Positions 8,020 to 34,415 of a stretch of DNA of 64,000 nt are shown here, in pieces. The notes under the pieces are model-generated. The model was not told the origin of the DNA. It did not search any database and saw only the letters and a program-made list of their open reading frames with translations. The DNA comes from Candidatus Cryptobacteroides intestinavium (GTDB lineage Bacteria; Bacteroidota; Bacteroidia; Bacteroidales; UBA932), in the NCBI GenBank assembly GCA_017694845.1, contig JADIMI010000007.1, positions 1 to 64,000 of the forward strand, read 5' to 3'. The stretch's first letter is position 1. The number at the start of each line of letters is the position of its first letter. The translations under genes were made by a program, and so were the position numbers.

Positions 8020-8058
8020 CTTCGTGTTGTTTTTTTGTTCGGTTTATTATTGGTTTTT

Positions 8059-8130
8059 CAGATCCTTCGCTGCGCTCAGGATGACAAGGGATGTCTCAGG
8101 ATGACAAGGGACGTCTCAGGATGACAAGGG
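8059..8130 (-). repeat. REP-like hairpin with tandem half-units, 3' of the oxidoreductase gene
   Basis: A full unit CAGATCCTTCGCTGCGCTCAGGATGACA (stem ATCCT/AGGAT) followed by 20-bp repeats ending TCTCAGGATGACAAGGGA. In the sense of the upstream gene (minus strand) it starts 16 nt after the stop codon and reads TGTCATCCTGAG...GAAGGATCTG. It may stabilise or terminate the mRNA between the two genes. Confidence 0.8.
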
Positions 8131-8146
8131 ACGCCTGTTCTGACAG

Positions 8147-9516: not shown

Positions 9517-11706
9517 CTACTCTTTCACACAGCGGACATTCCAGCCGGCGCCGAGATACGCATTGAAAGAAGTCGTGGTCCCGTAATCTGTCCGGTACGG
9601 TACATTTTCAGATACATTGGCAATGGAAATGAAAGCTGTTCCATTATCGATAGAACTGATCAGGCTGCCTCCGAATGCGGCCTGTCTCTGTCCGCTGTCA
9701 GGAACATATATATCCATCGATGCGCTGTAATATCCGTGCCAGCCGGAGACATCATTGAGATCAGAGAAGCTCCAGGCAGCACGCGGCATCACCTTCCAGC
9801 CGGGAGGACAAGGGTCATAGACAGTCTTGACATTGTCACTCGCCTCTCCCTGTGGATCCTTGTCCGGATTACCCCACAGATATTTCCAGACCCTGGCATT
9901 CTCTGTTCCGGAAAGATCACTGCGCGTCCAGTTATAGTCATCCTTTGCGATGTCGCTTCCCGACCAGCACATCCATCGGTACGGATACCTGACAGACTCC
10001 TCGACAGCCTGGTCTACAGTGAATGTATTTCCGAGCGCTGAAGACAGCTGATGACAGTTGGCTGCTGCATCGGTACCGAAAATCAGGTCAGAGAAACCCA
10101 ATGTCTGCTTGTCCGCAGCCTGTCTTAAAGCCTCGACCGGAGTATGCGTCGGGAGTCCCCAGCTTCTGTCTCCTCCCGTAACGCCCGATACCGCAACATA
10201 TTCAGCTGCCGCAGGGAACGGGTCCTTGCGTCCCCACTGGTAGTAGTTGCCTATCGCCCAGGCTTCCTCCGGTGTTCCCCGAACTTCGGGTCCGGCGGAG
10301 GCACCGAGGTTACGGTCCATCATTACATAGCCGTTGGCGGCAGGCCTGGATGCGGAGTCTGCATTATAGCAATTGCCTGCCGCCCAGATGTTCCAGCTCC
10401 ATAGAATCGTGCCTTCCGAATCGTATGCCGCAAGGAGTGCATTTCCTGTCACGTATTCCGCCGGAGTGGTGAAGCTGGCCATACCTGTCTCCGGATCGTA
10501 GCTGACGCTTCCGATGACCACAGGACTTTCATTGATATAACCATCCGCTGTCTTCGGGGTATTGTACCATACCAGACCGACGGACGCAGGCGCGATCTCG
10601 AGATCCGGTGCCGTATAGCTGCGTGTTATCTGCGTGCCATCTGACTCCGACCAGGTGAACGACCGCTCAATACCGTTCCCCTTGACCGTCGCATCAAAGG
10701 TATATGTCGTCGCAGGATAGGAAACTATGTAGGTGTTGGCAGTGCCATCCGCACTCAGGTCTACAGTCGCCGCATCATCCGGATTCACTTCCAGACCGGC
10801 ATAAGTCATATAATATGTATCGCCTGCAAGAAAACCTCCCTCAGGGGCGGCCTTGCCTTCTGCGACAGTATATTCGTTGCCGTTTATGACAGCCTTGACG
10901 GTGAAAGTCTTGCCGGCATGACCCGGAGTAATGAACATCTGCCATATGGAAACGGAGCAGGGCTGTATCATCTGACTTCCGGAAAGCGTGATGCCGCTGG
11001 TGGAAGTACCGGCTGCCGGTATGACTGTCCCGGTCCTGAGATCGACTGTGGAACCCTCTCCAAGAGAGACTGTCTCCGTATCATCATCGCAGCTGAATAT
11101 GAGTTCATCCACAATCGCAGGGCGGTCGGTGGAGAGACGGATTTCAAGTATCGAAAACAGGTGGGAGAATTTCAGATCTATCATCTGTGACTCATATTCC
11201 TCACCGGTAAACTGTATATCTTCCGCCTTTGCATACATAAAATCGAGGGCCGCAAATTCTCCCTGAGGACGGGCCGGATCGAATTTCTGTTCTGCAGGAA
11301 GAGTGACAGGGACAGCTCCGGCATCTGCGATATTCCCTTCAGTGTACGGATAGTAGGCATAGAAACTGTGACTGCCCGGTGCCTTACTGATAATCATATC
11401 CGAGGATATGGCAGTAAAAACGGCATTCTGCCCTGCCGCTGTATTCTGATAGCCATAGTTGGCTGCGACGGACACACCATCCGCCACACAGAATACACCG
11501 ATCCTGTCTTTATCGGCCCACTGCACCGTGACGGACTCTTCGGTGTCCTCATACGAGGTCCGGGTTCCTGCAAGGCGCTCCACGGAACCGGAGAATCTGA
11601 CTGCATCCTCCGGCATTGCAGGCGCTGTATATTCTGTTATTTCTTCCTTTGCACACGCTGTCGCAAAAAGAACGGACAGTGCGGCAAGATACGATGTATA
11701 TTTCAT
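9517..11706 (-). CDS. Fimbrillin-like lipoprotein with FISUMP domain (paralogue 1)
   Basis: About 729 residues. I start at the ATG giving KYTSYLAALSVLFATAC, a lipoprotein signal with the lipid Cys at TAC; the ORF track adds four residues. Residues about 35-270 resemble the Mfa-like/fimbrillin-like fold (FSGSVERL, SFYAYYPYTEG, FMYAKAEDIQF, LKFSHLFSILEIRL). A middle beta-rich module begins at VDLSADGTANTYIV, and the C-terminal half is FISUMP-like (DRNLGASAGPE, GNYYQWGRKDPFP, YDPCPPGWKVMP) ending at NVRCVKE. Such proteins are surface or fimbria-associated in Bacteroidales. It is the last of three tandem paralogues; its middle and C-terminal modules are strikingly close to those of the 14245-17088 protein. 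It lacks the DxF-K-W tail of the other two. Export and surface location are inferred. Confidence 0.82.
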   Translation of the reverse strand: MKYTSYLAALSVLFATACAKEEITEYTAPAMPEDAVRFSGSVERLAGTRTSYEDTEESVTVQWADKDRIGVFCVADGVSVAANYGYQNTAAGQNAVFTAISSDMIISKAPGSHSFYAYYPYTEGNIADAGAVPVTLPAEQKFDPARPQGEFAALDFMYAKAEDIQFTGEEYESQMIDLKFSHLFSILEIRLSTDRPAIVDELIFSCDDDTETVSLGEGSTVDLRTGTVIPAAGTSTSGITLSGSQMIQPCSVSIWQMFITPGHAGKTFTVKAVINGNEYTVAEGKAAPEGGFLAGDTYYMTYAGLEVNPDDAATVDLSADGTANTYIVSYPATTYTFDATVKGNGIERSFTWSESDGTQITRSYTAPDLEIAPASVGLVWYNTPKTADGYINESPVVIGSVSYDPETGMASFTTPAEYVTGNALLAAYDSEGTILWSWNIWAAGNCYNADSASRPAANGYVMMDRNLGASAGPEVRGTPEEAWAIGNYYQWGRKDPFPAAAEYVAVSGVTGGDRSWGLPTHTPVEALRQAADKQTLGFSDLIFGTDAAANCHQLSSALGNTFTVDQAVEESVRYPYRWMCWSGSDIAKDDYNWTRSDLSGTENARVWKYLWGNPDKDPQGEASDNVKTVYDPCPPGWKVMPRAAWSFSDLNDVSGWHGYYSASMDIYVPDSGQRQAAFGGSLISSIDNGTAFISIANVSENVPYRTDYGTTTSFNAYLGAGWNVRCVKE

Positions 11707-11740
11707 TTTGTATTGCATTATGTTGTCTTTTCTTGGTTTT

Positions 11741-11812
11741 CAGATTCTTCGCTTCGCTCAGAATGACAATCAGCTTCGCTCAGAATGACAATCAGCTTCG
11801 CTCAGAATGACA
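11741..11812 (-). repeat. REP-like array immediately 3' of paralogue 2
   Basis: One full hairpin CAGATTCTTCGCTTCGCTCAGAATGACA (stem ATTCT/AGAAT), then two repeats of about 22 bp, AGCTTCGCTCAGAATGACAATC. The array ends exactly at the stop codon of the minus-strand gene. Confidence 0.85.
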
Positions 11813-14146
11813 TTACCACTCCTTCTTGTCGAAGTTGTCAAGCTGTCCGTCAGGCAGTGCCTGGCCGACAGGAATCTTCATACAGCGCACGGCACAGCCT
11901 CTTGCAGTGTTTTCAGAATACGTTCTGCTTTCGACAGTAATATCAGGAATGACCACCTGATTTCCCGAGAAATAATTCCATTCTGCATTGAACCGGCCTA
12001 TGGCAGCATCGTAGGATCCATCAAACCAATAGCTTCCTCCGACATAACCGTTGCAGGAACCGATGTAACTGGTCGGCGATCCGTTGGTGTTGTGCCACCA
12101 CTCTCCTCCGGTGAACGGTATATAGAACCGGCCATCTATCAGGGCTCCCCTGCCTTCAGGCGACACTTCCGCCACTTCCTCGGATTCATTGTCCGTAAGG
12201 ACGTTCCATGCAGCCTTGCTCATCACTTTATATCCAGGAGGACAAGGGTCGTAGATCGTTTTGACACCGATCGGGTCACTATGGTCCGGATTACCCCATG
12301 CCGCCTTCGCTCCCGGCAGATACTGCCCGTCCTTATTCAGCCAGAGATGCGGGTTCTCCGTACCTGTATACAGGACATCCTCCGCTGTCAGGGAACCTGC
12401 GGAGATGCACAGAGATGCATCGTTGGCAAAGATATTGCCTTCCGTCACCCTGCCGTACGCCTCATACGGACCGACACGGAGTGATTCTATCGGTGTAAAG
12501 CCTGGGGCGAACCACAGACCTGTCATTACATTGGTAATCGCGCTCGTATAGTCAGGAAGTCCAGGGAACGGATCCTTTCTTCCCCATTGGTATACATTTC
12601 CGGTCGTCGATGCCAGAGTGACATAATTGACTCCGCTTCCTGTCCCTGCATCCGATGGGTCTATAAGCGCTCCCAGATCCCTGGTCATAAACGTATAGTC
12701 CCCTTTGGTGAACTGGCTGGATGCATCTGCAGGATCATATCCATCCGTAATCACCAGGTTCCAGCTCCACAGCACCTTGCTGGTGATCTGACGTGTCACC
12801 GGATCTACATCCACCGTCCCGTAATCTACATCATCTTCAAATGCAGCCACCAGGATATTTCCCGGATTCAATGTTTCAGGAGTCTTGAAATAGATATACC
12901 CGTCCGGAGCCAGTACAAGCGTCGACAGATCAATCGGAGAGTCAGTATGGGACCACGGTCCATATTGTGTCTGAAGTCTTGTATACCAGAGCACCAGTGC
13001 GCTCTTCGGTGCAATGGCGATGTCCTCTTCGGTATATGGCAGTCCTTCGAGATCAGGGACGGCACCGTTACCCTTGACATCCGCACGGAAGCGGTAGATT
13101 GTATTAGGAGCCGTGACGTAGTAGCAGTTGGCAGTGGCATCGGCGCTCAGGTCAGTCACCGGCTCGGCATCTTCAGGTGCAATATAAAGGCCATCGACAG
13201 TCACCACGTATGTCCTGCCTCCGACAAGACCTCCTTCAGGGACCACAAGCGGCTGGTCCATCTTATATTCATTGCCGTTGACCTCGGCTATGATATCGAA
13301 AGACCTGCCTGCATGCCCCGGGGATATGAGCATCTGATATGATACGTACTGTCCTATCATAGAACTGAGGCTGCCTTCAAGACGGATCTCGTTCGTGGCA
13401 TTGGCCGCAGTGATGGTCCTTGTAGTGAGGTCTACAGTGGAACCTTCTCCGAAAGAGACCGCCTCACCCTGTTCAGTGCAGCGGAAGACAAGCGCATCCA
13501 TCTTCACAAACTCCGTAGTACGGATATTCACCTGAAGCACAGGGAAAAGATGATGGAAATCAAGAGCGACCGGCTGATCTTCCCCCACTTCTGCCCGGGT
13601 CTGGTCCTGAGCCTCCGCATACATAAAGTCGATATCGGAGAAATAGTCTATAGGCGCAGATGAGAGCCATTGCTGGACTGCAGGCAGCTCTACCGGCACA
13701 GCCCTCGGATCCGCATCGCTGCCCGAGGACGTCTTCTTATATGGATAATAGGCATAAAAATCATGCGGAGTGGACTCATCGCTCCAGTATGCCACTTCCT
13801 CCGGAAGAAGATATTCTGAAAAGTCAGCTGTCCTGGAACTGCCGACGGTCCTGTTGCGGTATCCATAGTTGGCTGCAGTGAGTACGGGATTGTCACTTCC
13901 TTCACCGACCTCACAGAAAAGGCCGATCATATCCCCCGTAGACCACTGTACCGATATTCTGTCCGCCTGGTCTTCATATACGGTTCGGGTGGACGGGTCG
14001 TCTGTCCGTTCATCAGTCTCCACAGTGCCCGAGAAACAGATCCCGTCTATGTCAAGAGACTGCTGCAGTTCTTCCTGCAGTTCTTCCCTGGTGCATCCGG
14101 CCGACAGAAGCACGGCCAGTATGGTTATATATGGAATATATTTCAT
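11813..14146 (-). CDS. Fimbrillin-like lipoprotein with FISUMP domain (paralogue 2)
   Basis: A 777-residue lipoprotein. Signal KYIPYITILAVLLSAGC has a good lipobox (LSAGC). The N-terminal half is Mfa-like (ICFSGTVETDERTDD, ISVQWSTGDMIGLF, DFYAYYPYKKT, DFMYAEAQDQTR), then the shared module DLSADATANCYYVTAP, then a FISUMP-like C-terminus (MTRDLGALIDPSD, VYQWGRKDPFPG, YDPCPPGYKVMSKAAW). It is more diverged than the other two paralogues. The protein ends QLDNFDKKEW, a tail resembling that of paralogue 3. A run of ELQEELQQ after the lipid Cys is a likely flexible or coiled stretch. It is bordered on both sides by REP-like arrays. Probably exported to the surface as part of a fimbria-like or substrate-binding assembly; no direct evidence of partner. 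Confidence 0.82.
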   Translation of the reverse strand: MKYIPYITILAVLLSAGCTREELQEELQQSLDIDGICFSGTVETDERTDDPSTRTVYEDQADRISVQWSTGDMIGLFCEVGEGSDNPVLTAANYGYRNRTVGSSRTADFSEYLLPEEVAYWSDESTPHDFYAYYPYKKTSSGSDADPRAVPVELPAVQQWLSSAPIDYFSDIDFMYAEAQDQTRAEVGEDQPVALDFHHLFPVLQVNIRTTEFVKMDALVFRCTEQGEAVSFGEGSTVDLTTRTITAANATNEIRLEGSLSSMIGQYVSYQMLISPGHAGRSFDIIAEVNGNEYKMDQPLVVPEGGLVGGRTYVVTVDGLYIAPEDAEPVTDLSADATANCYYVTAPNTIYRFRADVKGNGAVPDLEGLPYTEEDIAIAPKSALVLWYTRLQTQYGPWSHTDSPIDLSTLVLAPDGYIYFKTPETLNPGNILVAAFEDDVDYGTVDVDPVTRQITSKVLWSWNLVITDGYDPADASSQFTKGDYTFMTRDLGALIDPSDAGTGSGVNYVTLASTTGNVYQWGRKDPFPGLPDYTSAITNVMTGLWFAPGFTPIESLRVGPYEAYGRVTEGNIFANDASLCISAGSLTAEDVLYTGTENPHLWLNKDGQYLPGAKAAWGNPDHSDPIGVKTIYDPCPPGYKVMSKAAWNVLTDNESEEVAEVSPEGRGALIDGRFYIPFTGGEWWHNTNGSPTSYIGSCNGYVGGSYWFDGSYDAAIGRFNAEWNYFSGNQVVIPDITVESRTYSENTARGCAVRCMKIPVGQALPDGQLDNFDKKEW

Positions 14147-14168: not shown

Positions 14169-14240
14169 CAGATTCTTCGCTTCGCTCAGAATGACAGTAT
14201 GATTCGTTCAGAATGACAGTATGATTCGCTCAGAATGACA
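14169..14240 (-). repeat. REP-like array immediately 3' of paralogue 3
   Basis: A full hairpin CAGATTCTTCGCTTCGCTCAGAATGACA plus two tandem units GATTCGYTCAGAATGACAGTAT. It ends about 4 bp from the stop codon of the upstream minus-strand gene, in the same sense orientation as the other 3'-end copies. Confidence 0.85.
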
Positions 14241-14244
14241 GTAA

Positions 14245-17088
14245 TCAGTTCCAGTCCTCCTTCTCGAAATCATCCACATTCCCTCCTGGATTTGACGAAT
14301 TCTGGACATACATTGCCTTCTGGAGCGCCTCTACGAAGACCGGTCCCATCACCGTCTCGAAACAGCCGGCATTAGGATGGACATCATCATTCCTGTATTC
14401 CTGCTTCAATGCCCCGTTCTCATCCACGAGGACAGAATAATAGTCGACATAGACGAATCCGTTCTCCTCGCAGTATGCCTTTATAAGTTCATTGAGATGT
14501 CTGATGCGAGGTATTACCGGATTTTCTTCATTCCAGGCATCATCCAGCCAGCCTATCCGGCCTGCAGGAGGCGTGGAGCCTATCATCACCTTTATTCCCC
14601 AGGAAGCTGCCTGTTCAGCCATTGTCCTGATGTTTTCGAAGATTTCCTCCTCTATAGGGATATCAGGCTCATTGTCATTATTGGCCATATCGTTGATACC
14701 TCCCATAATATGTACGACCTTAGGATCATTGGCTATGGCCTGGGAGAAGAACCGGGTGACAAAATTCGCGGTCGTAGTTCCATCCGCACCGAATGCGATG
14801 CAGTTATGGTCAGGGAAGAATGTCGGAACATAGCTGTTCCACGTCCTCGTAATGGAGTCTCCGATAAGTACACAGGCCGGACCTGAATGAGACAGCGAAA
14901 GGCTTCCGGTATCATCCTTGACGCAACGTACATTATAGCCTGCACCAAGATATGAATTGGCTGTCGATGCTCCCCACTGGTTCGCCTGCCACTGGTTATC
15001 TGACGTCACGTTGGCTGTCTCAAGGAACATTGTCCCTCCGGTAAGCGCCTGAATGAGGCTTCCTCCGAAACTTGCCTGCCTCTGACCGGTACAAGGGAAA
15101 TAGAATCCTGTCTTTTCACTGTAATAGCCGTTGTCCAGCGTCGTAAGGTTCGCCGCTGCAAAGACGTATGCTTCACGGGGCATCACTTTCCAGCCAGGAG
15201 GGCAAGGGTCATAGATTGTCTTGAGATTGTCCGCTTCCTCCGAACCGTATTCAGGATCCACGGCCGGGCAGCCCCACAGATAGCGCCATACCTTGGCATT
15301 GCCGGTTCCGGAAAGGCTTCCGCTGCGGGTCCAGTTATAGTTGTCGTTGGTACAGTTGCTTTCGGATGCAGACATCCATCTGTAAGGATATCTTATGGAT
15401 GCTTCCACCGCCTGGTCGACTGTATAGCTGTTTCCCAAAGCTCCCGAGAGCTGATAACAGTTGGCCGCTGCATCCGTACCGAAAATCAGGTCATTGAAGC
15501 CGAGTGTCTGCCGGTCCGCACTCTGCCGGTATTCTTCGACCGGTGTATGCGCAGGAAGTCCCCAGCTGCCCGTAGTTGAGCCGAGACTTGATTTCACCCC
15601 GCTGTTTGCCACATATTCAGCCGCTGCCGGGAACGGATCCTTGCGCCCCCACTGATAGTAATTGCCGACAGCGAGCACGGCCTGCTCCGCCGGAGAGTGC
15701 ATGACCTCCGGACCGGCAGCGGCTCCGAGATTCCTGTCCATCATAATATACCGTCCGGCACGGCCTGCCGATGCATCAGGATCATAGTTCTCCGCCGCCC
15801 AGATATTCCAGCTCCAGAGTATTTCCCCTCTGTCATCATATGCAGCCAGAAGCACATTGCCCGGCACGAACGGATCCGGAGTAGTGAAGAACACCATACC
15901 GAGTTCATATTTCAGTGATTCCAGCACTATAGGACATCTGTCCGCATAGCCATCGGCTGTCTTCGGAGTATTGTACCATACCACCCTTACATCCGCAGGA
16001 TTGATATCAAGATCCGAATATGAACGGGTTATCTCAGTGCCATCGCTCTCTGTCCAGGTGAAAGTCCTCGGCACCCCGTTCCCCTTGACCGTAGCACTGA
16101 ATCTGTACTGTGCCCCGGCCTTCGACACTATATATGTGTTGGCTGTTCCATCTGCACACAGATCCTCTGAATTCTCATAGCCATCCGAGCCCTTGTACTC
16201 GAAATCGACCGGATACGTTGTCAGTGTACCGGCATTGATACCGCCATCAGGAACGGCAAGGTCACCGAGAGAGACAGACTTGTCAGTGCCGTATTCCATA
16301 TCCAGAGAGAGGACAAGCCCCCTGGCAAGGGGATTTACTGCAAAATAGACGGTCACCGGTTCCCCGTAGATACTGACAGGTTCCGTAAAGTCATACTCGA
16401 TCTTATTTGACGGACTCACCGAAGAATCCCATGTGACAGTGCCGTCGACAAGATTGAGCACGCCCCCTTCAGATGCCAGACCGACACCCTGGTCTGCAGT
16501 GAGTGTAAGTTTCCTGGCAGATGGAACAGGGACATTGGACGTGATGTCCAGCCTTATGATCGCCGCTACGCTCGAGAAGTCAAGAGGGATATCCCGGACA
16601 GCCGGATCCACTTCCATTGATGATGCATACAGATTGAGATTCTCTTTCACGGAAGCCGTCTCTCCCGGTCTGCCTCCCTGTCTGGAAGAAACGGCGACAG
16701 GAATGGAGGTATAGTCATCGACAGAAGCCCTGTACGGATAGTAGGCGTAGATATCCCGCACTCCTGCGTCGGTCCCGTCCCATTCAATACCCTTGTCTCT
16801 GGATGGGCTGATAAATCTCACGCTTCCGGCCTCGTTGGAATAGGCCGCATAATAGACATTGCTCTGCTCGACCCGGCCATCAGCTACAGTGAACAGTCCA
16901 ATACGGTCCACATCTGCTTCCCACAGCAGGTTGAAGGCCTCTTCCGACGAACCTGAAGCCGTAAAGGTCGCAGTCCCTGTGAAAGCGACAGCATCCGGAT
17001 TGTACTCAGGTCCTTTCAGTTCTTCTTTCCGGCAGGCGAAAAGAGCCGCTGCCGCAAGCAGAAATGTCAAGAGTCTCGATGCTTTCAT
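14245..17088 (-). CDS. Fimbrillin-like/FISUMP lipoprotein fused to an SGNH hydrolase (paralogue 3)
   Basis: About 947 residues. I move the start from 17133 to the ATG at 17088, giving the lipoprotein signal KASRLLTFLLAAAALFAC. Order: Mfa-like domain (about 30-300), shared module at SEDLCADGTANTYIVS, FISUMP-like domain (DRNLGAAAGPEV, YYQWGRKDPFP, YDPCPPGWKVMP, NVRCVKDD), then from about residue 739 an SGNH/GDSL hydrolase. All four blocks are visible: CVLIGDSITR (Ser), the Gly block FGADG, GGIND (Asn) and DDVHPN (Asp, His). The fold resembles acetyl-esterase or PAF-acetylhydrolase-like enzymes. The protein ends VDDFEKEDWN, a tail shared with paralogue 2. The enzyme probably deacylates a polymer at the cell surface; the adhesin-like part would place it. 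The substrate is unknown. I regard the fusion as real because no stop or frame change intervenes. Confidence 0.85.
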   Translation of the reverse strand: MKASRLLTFLLAAAALFACRKEELKGPEYNPDAVAFTGTATFTASGSSEEAFNLLWEADVDRIGLFTVADGRVEQSNVYYAAYSNEAGSVRFISPSRDKGIEWDGTDAGVRDIYAYYPYRASVDDYTSIPVAVSSRQGGRPGETASVKENLNLYASSMEVDPAVRDIPLDFSSVAAIIRLDITSNVPVPSARKLTLTADQGVGLASEGGVLNLVDGTVTWDSSVSPSNKIEYDFTEPVSIYGEPVTVYFAVNPLARGLVLSLDMEYGTDKSVSLGDLAVPDGGINAGTLTTYPVDFEYKGSDGYENSEDLCADGTANTYIVSKAGAQYRFSATVKGNGVPRTFTWTESDGTEITRSYSDLDINPADVRVVWYNTPKTADGYADRCPIVLESLKYELGMVFFTTPDPFVPGNVLLAAYDDRGEILWSWNIWAAENYDPDASAGRAGRYIMMDRNLGAAAGPEVMHSPAEQAVLAVGNYYQWGRKDPFPAAAEYVANSGVKSSLGSTTGSWGLPAHTPVEEYRQSADRQTLGFNDLIFGTDAAANCYQLSGALGNSYTVDQAVEASIRYPYRWMSASESNCTNDNYNWTRSGSLSGTGNAKVWRYLWGCPAVDPEYGSEEADNLKTIYDPCPPGWKVMPREAYVFAAANLTTLDNGYYSEKTGFYFPCTGQRQASFGGSLIQALTGGTMFLETANVTSDNQWQANQWGASTANSYLGAGYNVRCVKDDTGSLSLSHSGPACVLIGDSITRTWNSYVPTFFPDHNCIAFGADGTTTANFVTRFFSQAIANDPKVVHIMGGINDMANNDNEPDIPIEEEIFENIRTMAEQAASWGIKVMIGSTPPAGRIGWLDDAWNEENPVIPRIRHLNELIKAYCEENGFVYVDYYSVLVDENGALKQEYRNDDVHPNAGCFETVMGPVFVEALQKAMYVQNSSNPGGNVDDFEKEDWN

Positions 17089-17254: not shown

Positions 17255-18223
17255 TCACAGCAGCAGTCCCACAGTAAGGCAGAGCGTGTTCCCGAGAGGC
17301 CCCTGCCCCTCAAAACGCCATGCCGCATCACAGCGGACCGGTCCGGCGATGAATCCGCAGCCGACAGCAGCCCGGTTTCCTCCGGTGACAGGAGGTCCGA
17401 GATGATATCCTGCCCTGAGGATCCCGTGTTTCAGGAAGACATACTCAGCTCCGGCCGCAGCCTCGAACGCCGATGCAGAGAAACGGTATTCCAGATCGGC
17501 CGCCAGATTCAGAACATGGTCAGATGAAAACGGCAGTCTGATGTACCCTCCGGCTCCGGCACGCACAGGCAGTCTTGAAGAAGAGCCTGAGGACGCGACA
17601 ATATCCGGCCCCAGACCGGCAGCCTTCACACCGACACCCCACCTGGCCCCATCCAGAAATCCGGCAGAATGACGGTAGACTCCCGCCGCATCGAATGACA
17701 CTCCCCTCATCGGACCCTCACCGATGCCGAGATCAGACTGCATATACATAACCGTCAGAGCTACCGAGAAATGCTCTCCGAAACCTCTGGCATAACCTGC
17801 CTCTATCGCGAAGTCATACGGATGTGCAGTCCCGACATGGTATCCCCACTCATCCGTCAGCACTATATCCTCACCGGAAATGCAGCGTACTCCTGCAAGA
17901 ATTCCGTTCCGGCCATCAATATTCCAGTATCCGCTTGCCGCATAAAGGACTTCCGACATATCAAAGTCAGTATTCCACGGGCCTGCAGCCAGATCCAGTC
18001 CGGCCTTATGCTCACCTGCAAGAACCGCCGCGGCATTGTGCCTGACAGCGGACGGATTGTCCGGAAGTATTCCGCCCGCCCCGGCCATACCTGCAGTACG
18101 AGCATCCGCATCCAGCAGCACGAACGGCATGGCCTGGCCTCCGGACTGAGCATATACGGGCTGGGCTGCCGCAACTATGATGCTTGCAATGAATATTGTT
18201 ATCGAGTTCCTCATCTTTGTCAA
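17255..18223 (-). CDS. PorV/PorQ family outer-membrane protein
   Basis: A 322-residue outer-membrane barrel protein. The signal peptide (MRNSITIFIASIIVAAAQPVYAQ; an alternative start is 9 nt downstream) is followed by the family's typical first strand region, DADARTAGMAGAGG...PSAVRHNAAA. The rest alternates as amphipathic strands ending in VGLLL. PorV carries type IX secretion cargo from the translocon to the attachment complex; PorQ is a homologue. The length is nearer PorQ and shorter than P. gingivalis PorV. It begins 2 bp after the stop of a subtilisin-like protease that has a T9SS sorting domain, so it may be a dedicated export partner for that protease. The name within the family is not certain. 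Confidence 0.75.
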   Translation of the reverse strand: MTKMRNSITIFIASIIVAAAQPVYAQSGGQAMPFVLLDADARTAGMAGAGGILPDNPSAVRHNAAAVLAGEHKAGLDLAAGPWNTDFDMSEVLYAASGYWNIDGRNGILAGVRCISGEDIVLTDEWGYHVGTAHPYDFAIEAGYARGFGEHFSVALTVMYMQSDLGIGEGPMRGVSFDAAGVYRHSAGFLDGARWGVGVKAAGLGPDIVASSGSSSRLPVRAGAGGYIRLPFSSDHVLNLAADLEYRFSASAFEAAAGAEYVFLKHGILRAGYHLGPPVTGGNRAAVGCGFIAGPVRCDAAWRFEGQGPLGNTLCLTVGLLL

Positions 18224-18225
18224 CC

Positions 18226-20613
18226 TTATCGCTTGATTATCCGCGCCGATACAACCGACCCGAAATAATCCACTTCACAGACATAGCGTCCCGGTGCAAG
18301 GGATCCGACATCCAGCGCCCCCGTCGGGGAATCAGACAGGCACGCACCGGAATCCTTTCCCGACCACCCGACACTGACCGTTCCGGAAAGCACCAGACCT
18401 CCCGATACATCATATATTCTCACCGGGAAGTCTCCATCGGCTCCCGGAATCCTTATATTAAGCATATCGGTACACGGATTCGGATACACATCGATATCCG
18501 CTCCGGCGGCTCCGACAATAATCCGGACCGGAATTCCCGCTGTCATACCATCGAGATCGGCTGCTATGACCGTGACAGTCACACTCCCTGTCCCGAGAGG
18601 AATCAGCCTGAGCACAGAGCCATCTGTCACGCGGCCCTCTACAATATCTCCATCCGGGAAGGAGGCGAAATAAGAAAGCCTGTCATCCGGCATATCGGCA
18701 TCTGTAAAACAGTCATCGAGAGGCACAGACACACCATCCTTGTCTCCGGCAGCGAGATAAATGTCAGATATCTCCCGCACAGCTTCAGGTGCAGTGTCTG
18801 AAGTCTTTGCCTGGAAGACATACGGAGCGGATGCCATCCCTCCGGGGCTGAGCCCGACTATGGCGATACAATACTCTGTATCAGTGTCAAGCCCATCCAT
18901 ATGACAGGAAACTGTCCGGCCGTCTTCACTTAACGTCACTTCCGGATCATATCTGACTGCCGAGGCGGGAATCTCATCCGCAGAGGATGCAGAAAAAGGA
19001 GTCCCGGAGACATATACGCCATACGAGACAAGAGGATCCCCCTTGTAGTCCATCGGAGCCTTCCACTGCATCTCTATCCTGCATCTGCGCCCGGTCGCTG
19101 TCACATCAGTGACCGGATCAGGCACGGCATCCCTGAAGAATATATATCCGGCATCTATCAGGCCGTTGCCGAGCTGTCCTGCATACTGAGGATTCATAGT
19201 TTCAGTAAGTTCCCTGCGGCCCGACTCAAGAAGGAGGGAGACAAGATCATCGTTTGTGAACCCGGGACCGCCGAACTCAGACACTGCAAGAGCCGCAATC
19301 CCCGAGACCTGCGGACAGGCCATGGACGTCCCGGAAGCGAATCCGTATTTCCCGCCCGGAAATGTACTGTAGACGCCAAGACGGCTGTCTCCGATTTCTC
19401 CGCCGGGCGCAGCGATATCGATCCAGTCCCCGTAATTGGAGCTGTAGGCCTTTCTGAAATCAGGGCCCAATGAGGCGACTGCTATCACAGGTCCGTACGC
19501 CGCCGGATATTTCGGAGTGTCGGTCCCATCATTCCCGGCAGCGAATATCACCACTCCTCCTTTCATAGGGCCTGTCTGTCTGCCGTTTTCGTCACAGCCG
19601 GCATTCCTTATGAAATAGTCGATTGCATCCTTGCCGGACTGAGACAGGTCGGTCGCTCCCGTATATGACCAGCTGTTCTGGCTGATCACCGCCCCGTGGT
19701 CAGCGGACCATGTCATTATATCAAATATGTCGGCATACCCTTCGTCATCGAAGACCTGGCAGCTCATCAGCTTCACTCCGCTTCCATCGCTTCCATCCCC
19801 TCCGGCTATGCCGCATACACCGATTCCGTTGTTGCTGACCGCCGCCACAATGCCGGCGACATGGGTCCCGTGGTCGCTCGGAGTGATATCATAACTGTGC
19901 CTGTTGAAATTATATCCGCAATGTCCTTCACCATCATCCCACATATTGGGAGCAAGATCCGGGTGGGTATAGTCTATACCTCCATCACATATCGCGACTA
20001 TCACATCGTCCCTCCCAGTCCCGACGGTCCAGGCCGGATATACATTTATATCCGCTCCTGCCGCAGAATAAGGAAGGCTTCCTTCATTGTGCATGAACCA
20101 TTGGTTGAAATGCAGAGGATCGTCAAAAGGGGGCACCGACATATCGAGAGGCATATACGTATGTGCCTCTGAAATGACAGCGGCTGTCTGTACCATACGG
20201 TAGACAGGCTCCACACAGACCACATTCTCCGGATTTCCGAATCTGGATATCGCTTCAGCGACCGTAATGTCTTCACTGAAACGGACGTCATACCATCTGT
20301 GCAGCCCGGCCCTGCGACGTCTCTCCATGAAGCGGCCGCCATCAGAGAACACACGGGAAATAGACACTGCACCTGCCCGTACCGCCGCCCTGTCGAACTC
20401 CTCGCTCCCAGACCCTCCGCTGCGGGTGAAGACTTTCGTATCCAGTGCAGGGGATGTCTCGCTCACCTTGACCCGGAAGACTCCGGGGACATACGCCTCT
20501 TCGGCAGAGACTGTCCCCGGGATATCCGGCACTTCCTGCATTTCGGACAGCCTGTCTGAACAGGCTGCCGAAAGCAGTACTGAAACGATATACGGAAGAA
20601 GTTGTCTTTTCAT
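18226..20613 (-). CDS. Subtilisin-like (S8) protease with T9SS sorting domain and lipoprotein signal
   Basis: About 795 residues. I use the ATG at 20613 (KRQLLPYIVSVLLSAAC), which gives a lipobox LSAAC; the ORF track starts six codons earlier. A propeptide-like region (about 30-170) precedes the peptidase domain. The catalytic triad is seen as VIVAICDGGIDYTHPDL (Asp), HGTHVAGIVAAV (His) and FASGTSMACPQVSG (Ser). A fibronectin III-like module follows (PDPVTDVTATGRR...). The last 90 residues are a type A T9SS sorting domain: DVYPNPCTDMLNIRI, VRIYDVSGGLV, LAPGRYVCEV, RIIKR. A lipoprotein signal combined with this sorting domain is unusual, since T9SS cargo normally uses a type I signal. Gene order after DUF4302 and before PorV-like indicates co-transcription with the SusCD genes. 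Probably degrades proteins outside the cell. Confidence 0.9.
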   Translation of the reverse strand: MKRQLLPYIVSVLLSAACSDRLSEMQEVPDIPGTVSAEEAYVPGVFRVKVSETSPALDTKVFTRSGGSGSEEFDRAAVRAGAVSISRVFSDGGRFMERRRRAGLHRWYDVRFSEDITVAEAISRFGNPENVVCVEPVYRMVQTAAVISEAHTYMPLDMSVPPFDDPLHFNQWFMHNEGSLPYSAAGADINVYPAWTVGTGRDDVIVAICDGGIDYTHPDLAPNMWDDGEGHCGYNFNRHSYDITPSDHGTHVAGIVAAVSNNGIGVCGIAGGDGSDGSGVKLMSCQVFDDEGYADIFDIMTWSADHGAVISQNSWSYTGATDLSQSGKDAIDYFIRNAGCDENGRQTGPMKGGVVIFAAGNDGTDTPKYPAAYGPVIAVASLGPDFRKAYSSNYGDWIDIAAPGGEIGDSRLGVYSTFPGGKYGFASGTSMACPQVSGIAALAVSEFGGPGFTNDDLVSLLLESGRRELTETMNPQYAGQLGNGLIDAGYIFFRDAVPDPVTDVTATGRRCRIEMQWKAPMDYKGDPLVSYGVYVSGTPFSASSADEIPASAVRYDPEVTLSEDGRTVSCHMDGLDTDTEYCIAIVGLSPGGMASAPYVFQAKTSDTAPEAVREISDIYLAAGDKDGVSVPLDDCFTDADMPDDRLSYFASFPDGDIVEGRVTDGSVLRLIPLGTGSVTVTVIAADLDGMTAGIPVRIIVGAAGADIDVYPNPCTDMLNIRIPGADGDFPVRIYDVSGGLVLSGTVSVGWSGKDSGACLSDSPTGALDVGSLAPGRYVCEVDYFGSVVSARIIKR

Positions 20614-20630
20614 TGACAGGGACGTCTGCA

Positions 20631-21590
20631 TTACTGTTCAAGACGGATTTCAAGCAGAGAGTCGGTGCAGACAAAACAGTCAGATGCAGGGACCGCTCCT
20701 TTTCTCCATTCGAATGTCTGGATAGTCTGGTCACGGAGGCCTTCAAGCCCGCCCTTGAAAGTATAAGGTTCATAGAGACGCATAGTGCCGTCATGGTAGC
20801 AGATGAAAGACAGCACATCATTGACGTTGATATCCTCATATACAGGCTCACCTGTCTGTTCATCGAACATTGGCTCTCCGAGGCTGTCCGTACGCTGCTG
20901 CTGATAGGTATAGGAAACAGTCCACAGCTTGCTCTGGTAGCAGCGTTCGAAACTGTTCTCATCGTATGCAGCGGACCGGGTGACAGTGCCATACTGCCTG
21001 CCGTTGACCATCAGTTTCAGGGATGTCGGAGTCACGGACTTCTGACTCTCCCTGACCGCATCCACATATTCCTCCGGAGTGTAGCCATCAGGCAGCGGGT
21101 ACAGAATGATATCATTCTCTGTCTTGATACCGCGCATAGTGATCCTGCCGTCATGGGACATATCCATAAAGGTGAACTCGTAGTCTCCCTTATAACCCTG
21201 GAAACCTCCGTTGCCTCCCGGGAAGGTGAAATAGTGCAGGTAGTCGTTGTAATTCGTGAACTTGAGCATCGGACCGGTCGAATACTCCACTGTGTACGGA
21301 GTCTCGACATAGGTGTCTTCCGCAAAAGTCTCTCCTTCGAACCAGGCGCGGACAGTATGCCCTTCATTGAACTGGAGGACATACATCCAGCCTCCGTATT
21401 CGAGTTCTTCACTCGGGAAATACTCCATCACCCATGTCCTGCCATCAAGCAGGGCCTGGTCATATACGGCCACTCCCTTGGCAATGCGCTCATCCGCTGA
21501 GTCTTCAAAGACATAGAAATCATCTTCACATCCGGCCGCAGTAAACAGAGCGGCGGCAAGCAGTCCTGATATTTTGATCTTTCTGTTCAT
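20631..21590 (-). CDS. DUF4302 family lipoprotein
   Basis: A 319-residue lipoprotein; signal NRKIKISGLLAAALFTAAGC with lipobox TAAGC. The body matches the DUF4302 pattern as I know it: an opening segment RTWVMEYFPSEELEYGGWMY, then repeated aromatic beta-strands and GYKGDYEFTFMDMSHDGRI. DUF4302 proteins sit in SusC/SusD clusters together with the zinc metallohydrolase lipoprotein family, as here. No enzymatic motif is visible, and function is unknown; a surface substrate-binding role is plausible. 21 bp separate it from the upstream gene. Confidence 0.75.
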   Translation of the reverse strand: MNRKIKISGLLAAALFTAAGCEDDFYVFEDSADERIAKGVAVYDQALLDGRTWVMEYFPSEELEYGGWMYVLQFNEGHTVRAWFEGETFAEDTYVETPYTVEYSTGPMLKFTNYNDYLHYFTFPGGNGGFQGYKGDYEFTFMDMSHDGRITMRGIKTENDIILYPLPDGYTPEEYVDAVRESQKSVTPTSLKLMVNGRQYGTVTRSAAYDENSFERCYQSKLWTVSYTYQQQRTDSLGEPMFDEQTGEPVYEDINVNDVLSFICYHDGTMRLYEPYTFKGGLEGLRDQTIQTFEWRKGAVPASDCFVCTDSLLEIRLEQ

Positions 21591-21611: not shown

Positions 21612-22499
21612 CTAGTCATCCAGGTCATCCCAGTCTATACGGTCGATGCTGGCTACCCGGCCGGTATATATGTCATGCCACTTATAGACATCTATTCTGA
21701 ATTCATCCCTGAGCCAGGAGACAAGGATGTCCCTTTTCTTCTCAAGGAAAGGACGTCCTGTGTCGCCCGCCTGGGAAAGGGTGCTCTCCCACCAGTCGGC
21801 ATCGTTGCCGACAAGGGCAGCAACCATCACTGCAATGTCCTCGGCAGGCGAGGAACGTGCATAGTTGCTCAGGAAACCGTTCTGGAGATAGTCATTCGGG
21901 GCACTCGTGTACTGGTCCCCTATATAGCCATCCTTGGTCACAAGGTCATAGTCCACAGGCACAGCTATATTGCCATCGAGTATATGCGCGAACTCATGGA
22001 CAATGGTCCCCACATACTGTTCGCAGCTAGCCTGATCCTCGCAGTTGAAGAAGTTGACCCCGAGCAGATTGATCTGCAGGCCGTTCTCCGCGGATGCCAG
22101 CACTACGGTACCGGTACTTTCTATTTCGTGGCAGCCGACAAGGAAAAGCTGACGGGGGAAATAGGTCTTTGCGAGCAGGAGAGGATCATCCTCTGCAGAC
22201 ATCAGCTCCGCCATCCCGTCCAGTATGACATATTTGATCAGCTTGGCAAGCTGTATGGACTTGTCGACTGGAGGAGGAGAGACCCAGTAATTGAAATGAG
22301 TCTCCCTGTCGGGCATCCTGTACTCGAAGTTGATATTGTACGGATCGACATAATGGCGGTCAAGCCAGAGGTCGAACTCGCTTTTGACTGCCCCTTCATA
22401 GCTGTCAAAGATACTGCTGCTGTCCGGCTCATCCTTGAAGCACGAAGTAAGCATCAGCGCGGCCATCGCCACAAGAAGATATGTAATCGTATTTTTCAT
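21612..22499 (-). CDS. Substrate import-associated zinc metallohydrolase lipoprotein
   Basis: A 295-residue lipoprotein (signal KNTITYLLVAMAALMLTSC). The zinc site is VGTIVHEFAHILDG, an HExxH motif, and a third ligand is likely further on. The family is named for its regular place beside SusC/SusD, consistent with its position 22 bp after SusD here. It probably acts on peptides or another imported substrate at the outer membrane. The bond cleaved is not established for the family to my knowledge. Confidence 0.85.
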   Translation of the reverse strand: MKNTITYLLVAMAALMLTSCFKDEPDSSSIFDSYEGAVKSEFDLWLDRHYVDPYNINFEYRMPDRETHFNYWVSPPPVDKSIQLAKLIKYVILDGMAELMSAEDDPLLLAKTYFPRQLFLVGCHEIESTGTVVLASAENGLQINLLGVNFFNCEDQASCEQYVGTIVHEFAHILDGNIAVPVDYDLVTKDGYIGDQYTSAPNDYLQNGFLSNYARSSPAEDIAVMVAALVGNDADWWESTLSQAGDTGRPFLEKKRDILVSWLRDEFRIDVYKWHDIYTGRVASIDRIDWDDLDD

Positions 22500-22521: not shown

Positions 22522-24186
22522 TTACTGACGGAAAGGATGATCAGGCTGGTCGGCGTTGCGCGGATTGCGGGTAAGTCCTGCCGAAATCACCTCGTACGGG
22601 AGCTGAATGGCACGGCGCAGGTCTGTATGTTCGAGGGTCTCCGCCACACGGTAGCCTTCTGTGTCCTCATCCACATAGTTAATGAGATCGAACCTGTCGA
22701 CATCTATCCCGTAACGTTTTACATCCTGCCAGCGGAGTCCATCCGCAAGGGTCTCGATACGGCGGCAGTAGAGCAGACACTGTATCATATTCTCCTGTTC
22801 ACCCGGATCGACCGTGAAGCCGTGCGGATGCAGGGCCTTGCGGGAAGTGGGATGCTCCGCTGTATATTCCGGTATATAGGCCTCTGATTCAGGATCGCCA
22901 TAGACTTCATTGATACGCTCCCTTGTCAGATGCACTATCCCGTTCTCGCCGACCTTGAACATAGAGCAGCTCCATGTGTCCATATCCTTCACTGCATCAT
23001 CATACCTCCTGAGGTGGATATAGGCTTCTGCACGGCAGAGCAGGGTCTCGTTGGTGGTGAAGGCCACCATTGTAGAACGGCCGTAACCGACTCCTGTTAT
23101 CTGGTCCAGAGTCTGCCACTGGTCAGGCCATTTAGGCATATATATCTTCTGTATATTGTCATTGATATACGGCTGGTAGAGATATGTCCTGTCAAGGGAT
23201 TTCTGCCCCCAGAGGTCATACGGGCCCCCCATAGGGCGAGGCGCCCTGTAGGTCTCCTGCTTGGAGAGACGGTAGGTGTGGGTAAACCTGGCGCCCGATT
23301 CGCTCCAGGCATTGAAAAACTTGCCGTTGGTGGAGAAGAGAGGGATGAGAAGAAGGTTGAACTCGTGGGAAGGGTCGATATAATCGAACGCCTGTCTCCC
23401 CCATTCAGCCTTGGCTGCATCCGGCCAGTCTCTCAGCACTATGGACGGTTCGCTGCCGAGCACTGCATCGGCATGCTCTATGACCTTGTCCCATTTCATA
23501 TAATAGAGATAGAACCTTGCCGCGAACGCATTGGCCGCATCTCGGTTGAAATGGTATTTAGGCACCGTATAGACATTGTCATCGATAAGAGGAAGTCCCT
23601 CCTCTATGTCTGCTGCGATATACCGGTACACATCCTCGAGACTGCCTCTCTCGTAATGCGGATTGAGAGTCTTTTCCGGAGCCAGCATATACGGGATGCC
23701 CATATACATGGAAGCCTTCTCCGGGTGATAAGGGAGGCAGTACAGCATTGAAAGACAGAAATGGCAGTACGCACGGCATATCAGGGCTTCTCCTTTGGCA
23801 GGAAGAAGTTCCTCCGGCGTCCCGAGGTTCTCGATCGCCTCGAGCGCCGTATTGGCATTGGAGATGGCGTTGTAGTACTGCTGCCAGGTGTTCTGGTTGC
23901 TCTCGTTCTCAGCATCGATCATATCGTTCCAGTAGGCATTCTGGAGCAGCAGACGGGAGAAGTTCGGATCATCCTCGCCCTGATCGTCCACATTGTCAGA
24001 GGATATCTCGCACATCCGGACATATGTCCTGTCCGGATAGGCAGACACCAGAAGCTTGTATATCTTCTCCGATGTGTCCAGCTCGGCACGGTTGTCCGGC
24101 AGCTCATCCAGGAATTCAGAGCATCCGGCAAGGATGCACAGAGCTGCAAAGACAGATGTAAATTTCAATATGTTTCTTGTATTCAT
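22522..24186 (-). CDS. SusD/RagB family substrate-binding lipoprotein
   Basis: A 554-residue surface lipoprotein; signal ends LAALCILAGC-like (CILAGCSEF). TPR-like helices at the N-terminus (EFLDELPDNRAELDTSEKIYKLL, then the WQQYYNAISNANTALEAIENL segment) and the C-terminal DGLRWQDVKRYGIDVDRF region are characteristic of SusD/RagB. It would close over its SusC partner and capture the substrate at the cell surface. Start codon lies 4 bp after the SusC stop, so the pair is translationally coupled. With a protease and metallohydrolase in the operon, a peptide substrate (as for RagAB) is as likely as a glycan. Confidence 0.93.
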   Translation of the reverse strand: MNTRNILKFTSVFAALCILAGCSEFLDELPDNRAELDTSEKIYKLLVSAYPDRTYVRMCEISSDNVDDQGEDDPNFSRLLLQNAYWNDMIDAENESNQNTWQQYYNAISNANTALEAIENLGTPEELLPAKGEALICRAYCHFCLSMLYCLPYHPEKASMYMGIPYMLAPEKTLNPHYERGSLEDVYRYIAADIEEGLPLIDDNVYTVPKYHFNRDAANAFAARFYLYYMKWDKVIEHADAVLGSEPSIVLRDWPDAAKAEWGRQAFDYIDPSHEFNLLLIPLFSTNGKFFNAWSESGARFTHTYRLSKQETYRAPRPMGGPYDLWGQKSLDRTYLYQPYINDNIQKIYMPKWPDQWQTLDQITGVGYGRSTMVAFTTNETLLCRAEAYIHLRRYDDAVKDMDTWSCSMFKVGENGIVHLTRERINEVYGDPESEAYIPEYTAEHPTSRKALHPHGFTVDPGEQENMIQCLLYCRRIETLADGLRWQDVKRYGIDVDRFDLINYVDEDTEGYRVAETLEHTDLRRAIQLPYEVISAGLTRNPRNADQPDHPFRQ

Positions 24187-24190
24187 ATCT

Positions 24191-27100
24191 TTAGATACCT
24201 ATTCTGAGGGTTAGGGTAAACTGTTTCGGCATAGGGGTGGCCACTCCGCCTGAATTGAAGAATTCAGGATCCTGTCCCTGGAGACGTCTGTCCGAATAGA
24301 TCAGGAACGGGTTGGTAGCCTGGAATTTCAGCGACAGCGCATTGAGTCTGATCCTGTCCAGTATCCTTTTCGGGAAATCATAGGTCAGGGACATCTCCTT
24401 CATTCTGATGAAGTCTCCCTTCGCCACCCTCACATCCGAATAGTTGTATGCGCTGTAAGCCATCGCGAGATTGGATGTCTCGTTGTTATACCTCGAGCTG
24501 ACAATTGTCGGCACATCGGTATATTTTTCATCTCCGGGATTGATGTAGCGGTTGGCAAATTCACGTGGAGTTGCCGTAAGATCCGAATAGACATTCGAGA
24601 AGATCGGATCAAGACGGACTACATTTCCGAATGAATATGTAATGAAAATATTGAGGGTAAATCCTTTATACTTGAAGATATTACCGAAGCTCCCGGTTAT
24701 GGTCGGGTCCGCAGGACCTTCATAGACAAGGCGGTCGGTGGTAATGTCCTGGAACGCCACGCCTGTGGTGGTCACCTTGCCATCGGACGGGTTGATGAAT
24801 GTAGGTATGCCCATCTCGTCCAGCCCGACATAATCCACGGAAAAAATCGAGCCGCGAGGCTTGCCCTCGACGGAATAACCGGTTCCGGTTATGAAATCGA
24901 TGACCCGGGTAGTCGTCTTGAGCCTGGTCACAGTATTGTCCATCCATGCGAAAATGAGGTTGCTGTCCCATGTGAAATCCTTCGTCTTGACATTGACAGT
25001 ATGAAGCGAAAGTTCCACTCCGTGCGATTTCATCTCCGCCACGTTGCCCATCTTGTTGATCACACCTCCGAGTCCCATCGTAATGGTGTTGCCTATGAGG
25101 TCAAAGTTATTGCGCTTATAGGCATCGGCTGAAATGGAAATCCTGTTGTTGAACAGCCCGAGATCGAGGCCGACATTGAATTCGTGTTTCTTTTCGTAGG
25201 TGAGCTCGGAATTCTCAGGAGAAGAGACGGCAAGGCCGGACTCGGTATATTCTGTATCTCCCCTCCAGGGATTGGTCGGATAGATTGTCACGAGAGAGTT
25301 GCTCACGCTCGATGGTCCGCGGTCGGCTGTCAGGGAATAGGAAAGCCTGAGGCCGAGAGTCGAGATTGTCGGGGAAACCTTCTCGAAGAAAGGCTCCTGG
25401 TCGATCGACCATCTTCCCGCTATATTCCAAGTCGGGAGCCAGCGGGCAGTCCGTGACCGGCCCAGACGGTTGGAGCCCTCATAACGGAGAGTGCCATTGA
25501 TCGTATAACGGTAGTCGTACGTATAGGATGCCGTACCTGCAAACGCCACATTGCGCTCGCGCGTATTGGTAAGGCTGTAGTACTGGGTGCCATCCTCCAG
25601 CTGTTTCTTGAACAGATCCAGGATATAATACGGGGTCTCCCCCATTGCATACTGCATGCCCCAGCCGGTAAAGGATGAAGAAGAGCGGTCAAGACCGTTG
25701 ACTTCCATCATGCCGTATGCATTGACGATATGCCTGTCCTTGAATGTGTTGTTATAGGTCGCGGATGCACGGAAATCCCAGCTGAGCGCCCTGTAGTCGT
25801 TTCTGCGGTAGATACCGCCTTCAGGGAGGATAGAATATTTCTCGCCCTGCACATCCGGATTGTCATAGAGATAAGGGTTCATACCCTGTATGGTGGAATT
25901 CGGCATAGAACGGTAGGCCTCCGCCTGGTTGGAGCCTTCCTTGATATGGTGCTCCGTGGATGATGACGAATACTTCACCGCTCCGAGGGCCGACACCACC
26001 AGCTTCGGGGTGATGTTCCATTTGAGCTCCGCCTGGAACTTGGAATCGAACACGTTCAGGTCCATATAGTTCTTGGACAGCTCATCCTTGATGTTGAACG
26101 GAGTGTAGTTCCTGGTATAGAACTCGTCCGGATCAAGCGTACGTGATGTGCGCAGGGCGTACGAGTACGGGTTGATGTCAAAATCCCTGGAAACGGTGCC
26201 GAATACCGGGTCAAGCTCGGAAGAAAGTGATCCCGGTGCAGTCTGCTTACGGTAGGAGGCATTGCCTATGAGATTGAGAGTAAGCTTGTCCTTCAGCAGG
26301 TTCTGTGTGGCGTTCAGGAGCATGGTATAACGGTTGACCTTGCTCTGAAGCGTCCAGCCGGGATCTACCAGGGCGCCGAGAGATGCATAATAGGAACCCT
26401 TCTCGGAACCTGATGTGATGCTCACCGAATGACTGTGCTGGACACTTGGCTGGAAAAGTTCCTTGAACCAGTCGGTATTGCGCATTTCCGCCTGACGCAG
26501 ATACTCCATCATTCCTTCCTTGGTATTTATGACACCGTAGCCGGTCTCGGGATCGTAGGTGTTTATGAGCTGGGACATCTTTCCATATACACCGCTCTCT
26601 GCACCTACCACCTTATCCGCATAGTTGAGCCAGCCCTTGTCGTACATCTCCTGATATACCGACATCTGTTCCTGGGAATTCATTATGTTGAACTGGGAGT
26701 AACTCGGCACCATACGCATAGTATATTCACCCGTATATGACACGCGGGTAACTCCCGGACGGCCTTTCTTCGTCGTCACCACAATCACTCCGGCCATCGC
26801 CCTTGCCCCGTAGATGGATGTCGCGGAACCATCCTTCAGGATCTGGAAGCTCTCGATGTCATCCGGATTGAGCCCTGAAATAGCCGAACTTATGAGAGTG
26901 GTGGCATCGCCTGATGACAGAGAGTTGGCATCCACATCCACCACATCCTCCATTATCACGCCATCGACCACCCATATAGGCTTCGAGTCACCATAGATGG
27001 AAGATGCGCCACGGATCCTGATCTTGGGTGCAGCACCGAAGGTTCCGGATACATTCTGCACTGACACTCCGGCGGAACGGCCTTCAAGACTGCGGGCGAT

Positions 27101-27508
27101 CTCGCCCACGCCATCCAGTTTTATGTCCTCCGCCTGAAGCTGGTCTGTCGCTCCGGTGAAGACACGTCTGTCCACCCTCTGCATACCGGTCACCACTACC
27201 GAGGCAAGCTCCTCTGAATCCGGGACCATCGCGAAATCTATACGGTCTGCCGCAGCTCTTTTCTCTATCGGCACATAACCGAGGAAATATGCCCGCAAAA
27301 CAGCGTTCTCCGGGACATTCTTCAATGTGTAGTTACCATCGATGTCCACTGCCGTACCATCATCAGTGCCGACAATCTGGATGACGGCTCCCACCATCGG
27401 CGCCCCTGTCTCATCCACCACTTTTCCAGTGACGGTCCTGGTCTGCTGGGCAAAGGCGTGGCCCGCCGTCCAGAGACAGAGCAGAAAGAAAACGATAAAT
27501 CTTTTCAT
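24191..27508 (-). CDS. SusC/RagA family TonB-dependent transporter
   Basis: A 1105-residue outer-membrane transporter. It has a signal peptide (ending AFAQQ), an N-terminal carboxypeptidase-regulatory-like domain (VTGKVVDETGAPMVGAVIQI), the plug domain (SVVVTGMQRVDRRVFTGA, RIRGASSIYGDSKPIWVVDG, YGARAMAGVIVVTTKKG) and a 22-strand-type barrel ending in FTLTLRIGI. Length is normal for the family. No anti-sigma/STN extension is visible at the N-terminus, which fits control by the nearby hybrid two-component protein. It imports the substrate captured by SusD using TonB energy. Confidence 0.95.
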   Translation of the reverse strand: MKRFIVFFLLCLWTAGHAFAQQTRTVTGKVVDETGAPMVGAVIQIVGTDDGTAVDIDGNYTLKNVPENAVLRAYFLGYVPIEKRAAADRIDFAMVPDSEELASVVVTGMQRVDRRVFTGATDQLQAEDIKLDGVGEIARSLEGRSAGVSVQNVSGTFGAAPKIRIRGASSIYGDSKPIWVVDGVIMEDVVDVDANSLSSGDATTLISSAISGLNPDDIESFQILKDGSATSIYGARAMAGVIVVTTKKGRPGVTRVSYTGEYTMRMVPSYSQFNIMNSQEQMSVYQEMYDKGWLNYADKVVGAESGVYGKMSQLINTYDPETGYGVINTKEGMMEYLRQAEMRNTDWFKELFQPSVQHSHSVSITSGSEKGSYYASLGALVDPGWTLQSKVNRYTMLLNATQNLLKDKLTLNLIGNASYRKQTAPGSLSSELDPVFGTVSRDFDINPYSYALRTSRTLDPDEFYTRNYTPFNIKDELSKNYMDLNVFDSKFQAELKWNITPKLVVSALGAVKYSSSSTEHHIKEGSNQAEAYRSMPNSTIQGMNPYLYDNPDVQGEKYSILPEGGIYRRNDYRALSWDFRASATYNNTFKDRHIVNAYGMMEVNGLDRSSSSFTGWGMQYAMGETPYYILDLFKKQLEDGTQYYSLTNTRERNVAFAGTASYTYDYRYTINGTLRYEGSNRLGRSRTARWLPTWNIAGRWSIDQEPFFEKVSPTISTLGLRLSYSLTADRGPSSVSNSLVTIYPTNPWRGDTEYTESGLAVSSPENSELTYEKKHEFNVGLDLGLFNNRISISADAYKRNNFDLIGNTITMGLGGVINKMGNVAEMKSHGVELSLHTVNVKTKDFTWDSNLIFAWMDNTVTRLKTTTRVIDFITGTGYSVEGKPRGSIFSVDYVGLDEMGIPTFINPSDGKVTTTGVAFQDITTDRLVYEGPADPTITGSFGNIFKYKGFTLNIFITYSFGNVVRLDPIFSNVYSDLTATPREFANRYINPGDEKYTDVPTIVSSRYNNETSNLAMAYSAYNYSDVRVAKGDFIRMKEMSLTYDFPKRILDRIRLNALSLKFQATNPFLIYSDRRLQGQDPEFFNSGGVATPMPKQFTLTLRIGI

Positions 27509-34388: not shown

Positions 34389-34415
34389 ATCAGCCTTGAT
34401 TTTTCCCGGTATCAG

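Follow-up and report, generated by a model that had tools for sequence, protein, structure and literature searches.

The window, a stretch of 64,000 nucleotides, carries on its minus strand a gene (14245..17088) for a lipoprotein in which a Mfa/fimbrillin-like domain, a FISUMP-like domain and an SGNH hydrolase are fused. The sequence-only reading had placed the Mfa-like and SGNH domains in a single open frame, and this is confirmed: the frame runs uninterrupted for 947 codons from its ATG start. In order from the N-terminus, the protein comprises a signal peptide and lipobox (residues 1-19, ..LFA|C19; 17032..17088), a surface lipoprotein export motif, R-K-E-E (residues 20-23; 17020..17031), the Mfa-like domain (residues 28-296; 16201..17007), a predicted beta-rich domain (residues 301-435; 15784..16188), the FISUMP-like domain (residues 436-727; 14908..15783), the SGNH/GDSL hydrolase domain (residues 739-928; 14305..14874), and an acidic C-terminal tail, GGNVDDFEKEDWN (14248..14304). 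Two paralogues that lack the SGNH domain lie beside it on the same strand, one (11813..14146) with the tail DNFDKKEW and the other (9517..11718) without a tail.

Also on the minus strand, a set of six genes leads into this array in the order SusC-like TonB-dependent transporter (24191..27508), SusD-like lipoprotein (22522..24186), Peptidase_Mx1 zinc metallopeptidase-like lipoprotein (21612..22499), DUF4302 lipoprotein (20631..21590), S8 subtilase with a weak T9SS-type C-terminal domain (18226..20631) and PorV/PorQ-family outer-membrane protein (17255..18223; NF033709, 169 bits). The first four were assigned by Pfam and the subtilase by profile searches, and all six are conserved neighbours. 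Upstream of them lie a BACON lipoprotein and a hybrid two-component regulator (HTCS; 28866..32921, minus strand). With its adjacent SusC/SusD pair and dedicated HTCS, the locus is Sus-like, and like other such loci it includes surface lipoproteins. However, two peptidases, a PorV-like protein and an adhesin-like array stand in place of the usual glycoside hydrolase set: among the genes scanned around the cluster, no classical glycoside hydrolase was matched, but only 3-keto-disaccharide hydrolase domains and SGNH. One of the former belongs to a HEAT/3-keto-disaccharide hydrolase protein that adjoins a Gfo/Idh/MocA oxidoreductase (5212-9445), a pair that is kept beside the array in relatives, while a second such hydrolase protein is encoded upstream of the HTCS (32931-34430). 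The genome has two PorV-family genes, one in the 17255-20631 region and one at about 8926-9408 of a further contig (G000:C30; L154, L155). Each comes directly after a gene whose subtilase-like product bears a C-terminal domain of the T9SS type, which makes a recurring protease/PorV pair.

The complete six-gene set also flanks the fusion in L084-L086, L090 and L098, and part of it does so in L093-L096 and L101; the arrays reach up to 7-8 tandem paralogues. In some loci the set lies upstream on the same strand, and in others downstream on the opposite strand. Because the set is found beside the fusion on either strand, the link between them evidently survives rearrangement, and this persistence is the best evidence that the fused protein works with the SusC-PorV system.

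Full-length relatives of the fused protein were found at at least 16 further loci, with identities of 35-72%. When 400 genomes of the genus were searched, seven further species proved to have the fused protein at full length, three with 72% identity over residues 1-947 and the rest with 39-50%; several of these genomes hold two fused copies. Fused homologues were also present in Alistipes and other Rikenellaceae records of an organism-labelled collection, including one of 54% identity from a record titled as an isolate, Alistipes sp. An66 (L090). Only 8 of the 400 genus genomes carry a full-length copy, and a sample of 295 genomes from across the order gave no fused copy outside the genus at E <= 1e-30, so that the distribution of the family is patchy. 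A frameshift or a chimeric assembly could be excluded without recourse to reads, since the fused frame recurs, C-terminal tail included, in other species and records. Although the source assembly is fragmented into 89 contigs, an artefact that joined two genes can be dismissed given the identical junction and tail at at least 16 other loci, the isolate record among them, and the fused frame is real.

The SGNH domain was assigned by Pfam, by fold and by homologue alignments. Its match to Lipase_GDSL_2 (PF13472; residues 742-907, 75.5 bits, E 9.6e-21) is well over the cut-off of 32.9, and the predicted structure, with pLDDT mostly 85-97 (AlphaFold2), resembles BDI_0976 (3p94) with a TM-score of 0.86 by target length and an rmsd of 2.0 Å (Foldseek). 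The sequence-only reading had called the hydrolase complete on the basis of the motifs GDSIT, GGIND and DDVHP; all three are present, together with a fourth, GADGTT. They correspond to blocks I, III, V and II, respectively, and supply the active-site residues Ser745 (GDSIT; codon 14854-14856), Gly770 (GADGTT; 14779-14781), Asn799 (GGIND; 14692-14694), and Asp901 and His904 (DDVHP; 14386-14388 and 14377-14379), all encoded on the minus strand. These five residues are unchanged in 11 of 11 and in 16 of 16 aligned fused relatives, and are retained down to an SGNH identity of 36%. Comparison of the window protein with its orthologue L084 gives identities of 68% for the Mfa domain, 70% for the middle region and 83% for the SGNH domain, which is thus the most constrained part. 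It is very improbable that the domain is a binding module devoid of catalysis: six fused relatives do have GNS rather than GDS in block I, but the Ser, Gly, Asn, Asp and His are constant across all fused copies.

The closest solved relatives of this domain are the Bacteroidales SGNH acylhydrolases BDI_0976, BACUNI_03406 (4iyj), BT0569 (4hf7) and BF3764 (4ppy), with profile E-values of 1e-48 to 1e-53 and model TM-scores of 0.79-0.86; a search for a reported activity of these four proteins found none. They resemble the window protein in the SGNH domain, whereas their chains are single-domain, about 200 residues long, and lack the Mfa, FISUMP-like and tail regions. Profile relatives with known activity are sialate O-acetylesterases, such as that of Phocaeicola/Bacteroides vulgatus (6njc, 7pzg), and acetyl-xylan esterases, such as Axe2 (3w7v). 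The fold and catalytic blocks are common to these and the window SGNH domain, but they are free enzymes whose profile similarity is distant (E about 1e-11 to 1e-12), and their substrates are not transferable. Elsewhere in the genus (L030-L045, L078-L083), numerous other proteins carry a related SGNH domain, fused at the N- or the C-terminal side; the partners include Laminin_G-like (L031), beta-helix (L035) and fn3-like (L042) domains, several large hydrolase-like frames, or a second SGNH domain; the SGNH domain is promiscuous.

At the opposite end of the protein, the Mfa_like_1 profile (PF13149) matches residues 56-231 with 38.6 bits against a cut-off of 27, so that both the Mfa and the SGNH matches exceed the curated Pfam thresholds. 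Structure prediction agrees with both assignments. The whole-protein model (AlphaFold2, 34 homologues) has a mean pLDDT of 83.8, rising to approximately 90 in the N-terminal domain, whose fold resembles those of the Bacteroides adhesin/pilin-like proteins BF1858 (3t2l), BACOVA_04980 (3ufi) and BACUNI_00621 (4k4k) (Foldseek). Relative to these fimbrillin-like/type V pilin-like proteins, the window protein adds about 650 residues of other domains, the enzyme included. The beta-rich domain that follows is predicted in the AlphaFold2 models with pLDDT of about 83-98.

The naming of the middle domain is less secure. The sequence-only reading had termed it FISUMP-like, yet the window protein itself falls far below the cut-offs of both FISUMP profiles, with no match to TIGR02145 and E = 6.5 for PF09603. 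Relatives do match weakly (8 of 34 for TIGR02145 and 9 of 34 for PF09603, with best E-values of 3.6e-5 and 6e-4), and through them the label is weakly supported. The domain has invariant motifs, and two of its cysteines, C629 and C722, are invariant. Modelled separately, the middle region reached a pLDDT of 84.3 and a pTM of 0.90, and comparison of this model with the PDB gave no match at E <= 0.001. A C-type-lectin fold for this domain is accordingly not supported.

The description of the protein as a lipoprotein stands, with a signal peptide and a lipobox cysteine, Cys19, that is conserved in all 34 relatives. The optimal surface-export motif of lipoproteins has been defined in Capnocytophaga as C-x-K-(D/E)2-X (PMC5080379), and the mature N-terminus, C19-R-K-E-E, fits C-x-K-(D/E)2; the strict motif, with Lys or Arg allowed, is kept in 9 of the 34 relatives. 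These features support the proposed surface display, and the fused lipoprotein probably resides at the cell surface. No Por_Secre_tail match indicative of a T9SS sorting domain was obtained for it in profile searches; such a domain was seen only on the neighbouring S8 subtilase.

The two paralogues had been taken to imply that the esterase was inserted between the FISUMP domain and the C-terminal tail. Domain searches bear out that both lack SGNH, and the enzyme is positioned as described, after the VRCVK that closes the FISUMP-like domain and before the C-terminal tail. However, a middle-domain tree rooted on 15 outgroup proteins assigns the paralogues different histories. A single clade (support 99/98) takes in all 18 fused proteins, together with the unfused 9517-11718 protein and a relative, L089_10137, both deeply nested. 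A constraint tree that kept the fused proteins together to the exclusion of these two was rejected (AU p = 0.018). The 9517-11718 gene has therefore lost its SGNH domain and tail secondarily, and the inference of an insertion from the two paralogues is not supported in that form. The 11813-14146 protein belongs to the sister clade, in which no sampled member has SGNH. In a set of 64 SGNH sequences, those from the FISUMP fusions cluster together (support 78/77, 80% of bootstrap trees), which is consistent with one acquisition of the enzyme. The fusion arose once, and loss followed.

The N-terminal module has a different history. The Mfa domains of 9517-11718 and of a second fused type group with those of the sister-clade paralogues, two fused proteins begin with BACON repeats, and two from Alistipes/Rikenellaceae have an N-terminus without a Pfam match; in all, two kinds of Mfa domain, BACON and an unassigned type are represented. 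Since N-terminal types and groupings differ in this manner, the FISUMP-like and SGNH domains are the stable unit onto which the N-terminal module is swapped. A relative of 9517-11718 (L100:11681-14359) carries, after VRCVKE and a PEPEPEPE linker, a C-terminal module of approximately 130 residues for which no Pfam match was found. The window also holds an interspersed repeat, GTCATTCTGAGCGAA, in 13 copies where 0.19 would be expected (11753-11811, 14181-14239, 34484-34609, 49647-49681, 4876 and 8071), with three copies in tandem at 22-base spacing in the gaps beside the 11813-14146 gene. The repeat might promote recombination, or the swapping of domains, within the array. In a search for a diversity-generating retroelement, the sole reverse transcriptase found in the genome was located on another contig (G000:C42:18567-19235; L152).

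In all 16 fused proteins of the 34-row set the chain extends 17-27 residues beyond the SGNH domain and carries the C-terminal tail, which in the window protein ends DDFEKEDWN. Its pattern is approximately G-[NQ]-[IVL]-D-D-[FL]-[DE]-K-x-x-W, with variants. A comparable tail occurs in 7 of 18 unfused relatives and is missing from the remaining 11, and when the whole genome was searched at the DNA level, the motif turned up in only two copies, both in the window array. An origin of the tail from the SGNH donor was rejected, as no SGNH protein examined outside the FISUMP fusions ends in this way. The pattern of a tail on all array genes but the last holds in the window's array and in those of its nearest relatives, but was dropped as a general rule because it fails in L088, L093, L095 and G335. 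The tail is predicted to be disordered (pLDDT < 50 at residues 929-947) and is conserved in fused relatives, and this combination suggests that it may be a docking peptide.

Together, these observations favor, with a probability of roughly 0.6, a surface-exposed, lipid-anchored esterase that serves the adjacent SusCD/peptidase locus by acting on an O-acylated glycan or glycoprotein; the enzyme is probably a surface deacetylase. The lipid anchor would tether the protein at the cell surface, the pilin-like Mfa domain and the beta-rich domain would form a stalk, and the FISUMP-like domain may present or recognize the target. The terminal SGNH domain would then deacylate the O-acylated glycan or glycoprotein, most likely by removing acetyl, and the product would become open to the peptidases and SusCD for processing and import. 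The N-terminal module would be exchanged through recombination within the array, with single copies such as 9517-11718 arising without the enzyme by loss. A glycan target is not compelled, given that no classical glycoside hydrolase was matched and that the two flanking enzymes are peptidases.

Other roles for the protein have to be weighed against this one. Many SGNH enzymes tailor envelope glycans, and a tethered esterase could be directed not at food but at the surface polymers of the bacterium itself, such as its capsule, its LPS or the glycans of its glycoproteins. Such a role seems quite unlikely, as the linkage is to SusCD, an HTCS regulator and peptidases and not to envelope biosynthesis genes, and the distribution within the genus is patchy.

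Type V pilins polymerize by strand exchange triggered by a protease (PMC7616799). The Mfa domain might polymerize into a type V-like fibre bearing FISUMP-SGNH along its length or at its tip, with the S8 peptidase in the role that Rgp has for FimA and the acidic tail as a subunit-docking element. The Mfa_like_1 match and pilin-like fold fit this arrangement, as do the tandem arrays beside a secreted-type protease and a PorV-like protein, and the conserved, disordered tail that every fused protein and many of the array members carry, confined in the genome to two sites. Yet the lipobox and export motif are retained, as in anchored lipoproteins, large additional domains lie C-terminal to the pilin-like domain, 11 of the 18 unfused relatives have no tail, and no fimbrial operon partners were identified, so that fibre assembly is unlikely. 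A further possibility, equally tentative, is a positional surface array of tandem pilin-like lipoproteins in which the fixed boundary after VRCVK accepts functional heads (SGNH at at least 16 loci, another module in L100) and the disordered, W-ending tail docks onto a complex of SusCD, the PorV-like protein and peptidase, which would create an enzyme-bearing complex with interchangeable parts.

Each of the individual domains is already known, but searches of open-access papers turned up no description of the Mfa/FISUMP-like/SGNH/tail architecture. If the tethered esterase is the correct reading, the pilin-like adhesin scaffolds of gut Bacteroidales would function beyond attachment, as enzyme tethers in a nutrient-uptake locus. 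The analysis also brings to light a conserved C-terminal tail and a boundary for module swapping, and the set of orthologues, which includes the isolate record Alistipes sp. An66, offers a route to the substrate of a large, uncharacterized SGNH subfamily.
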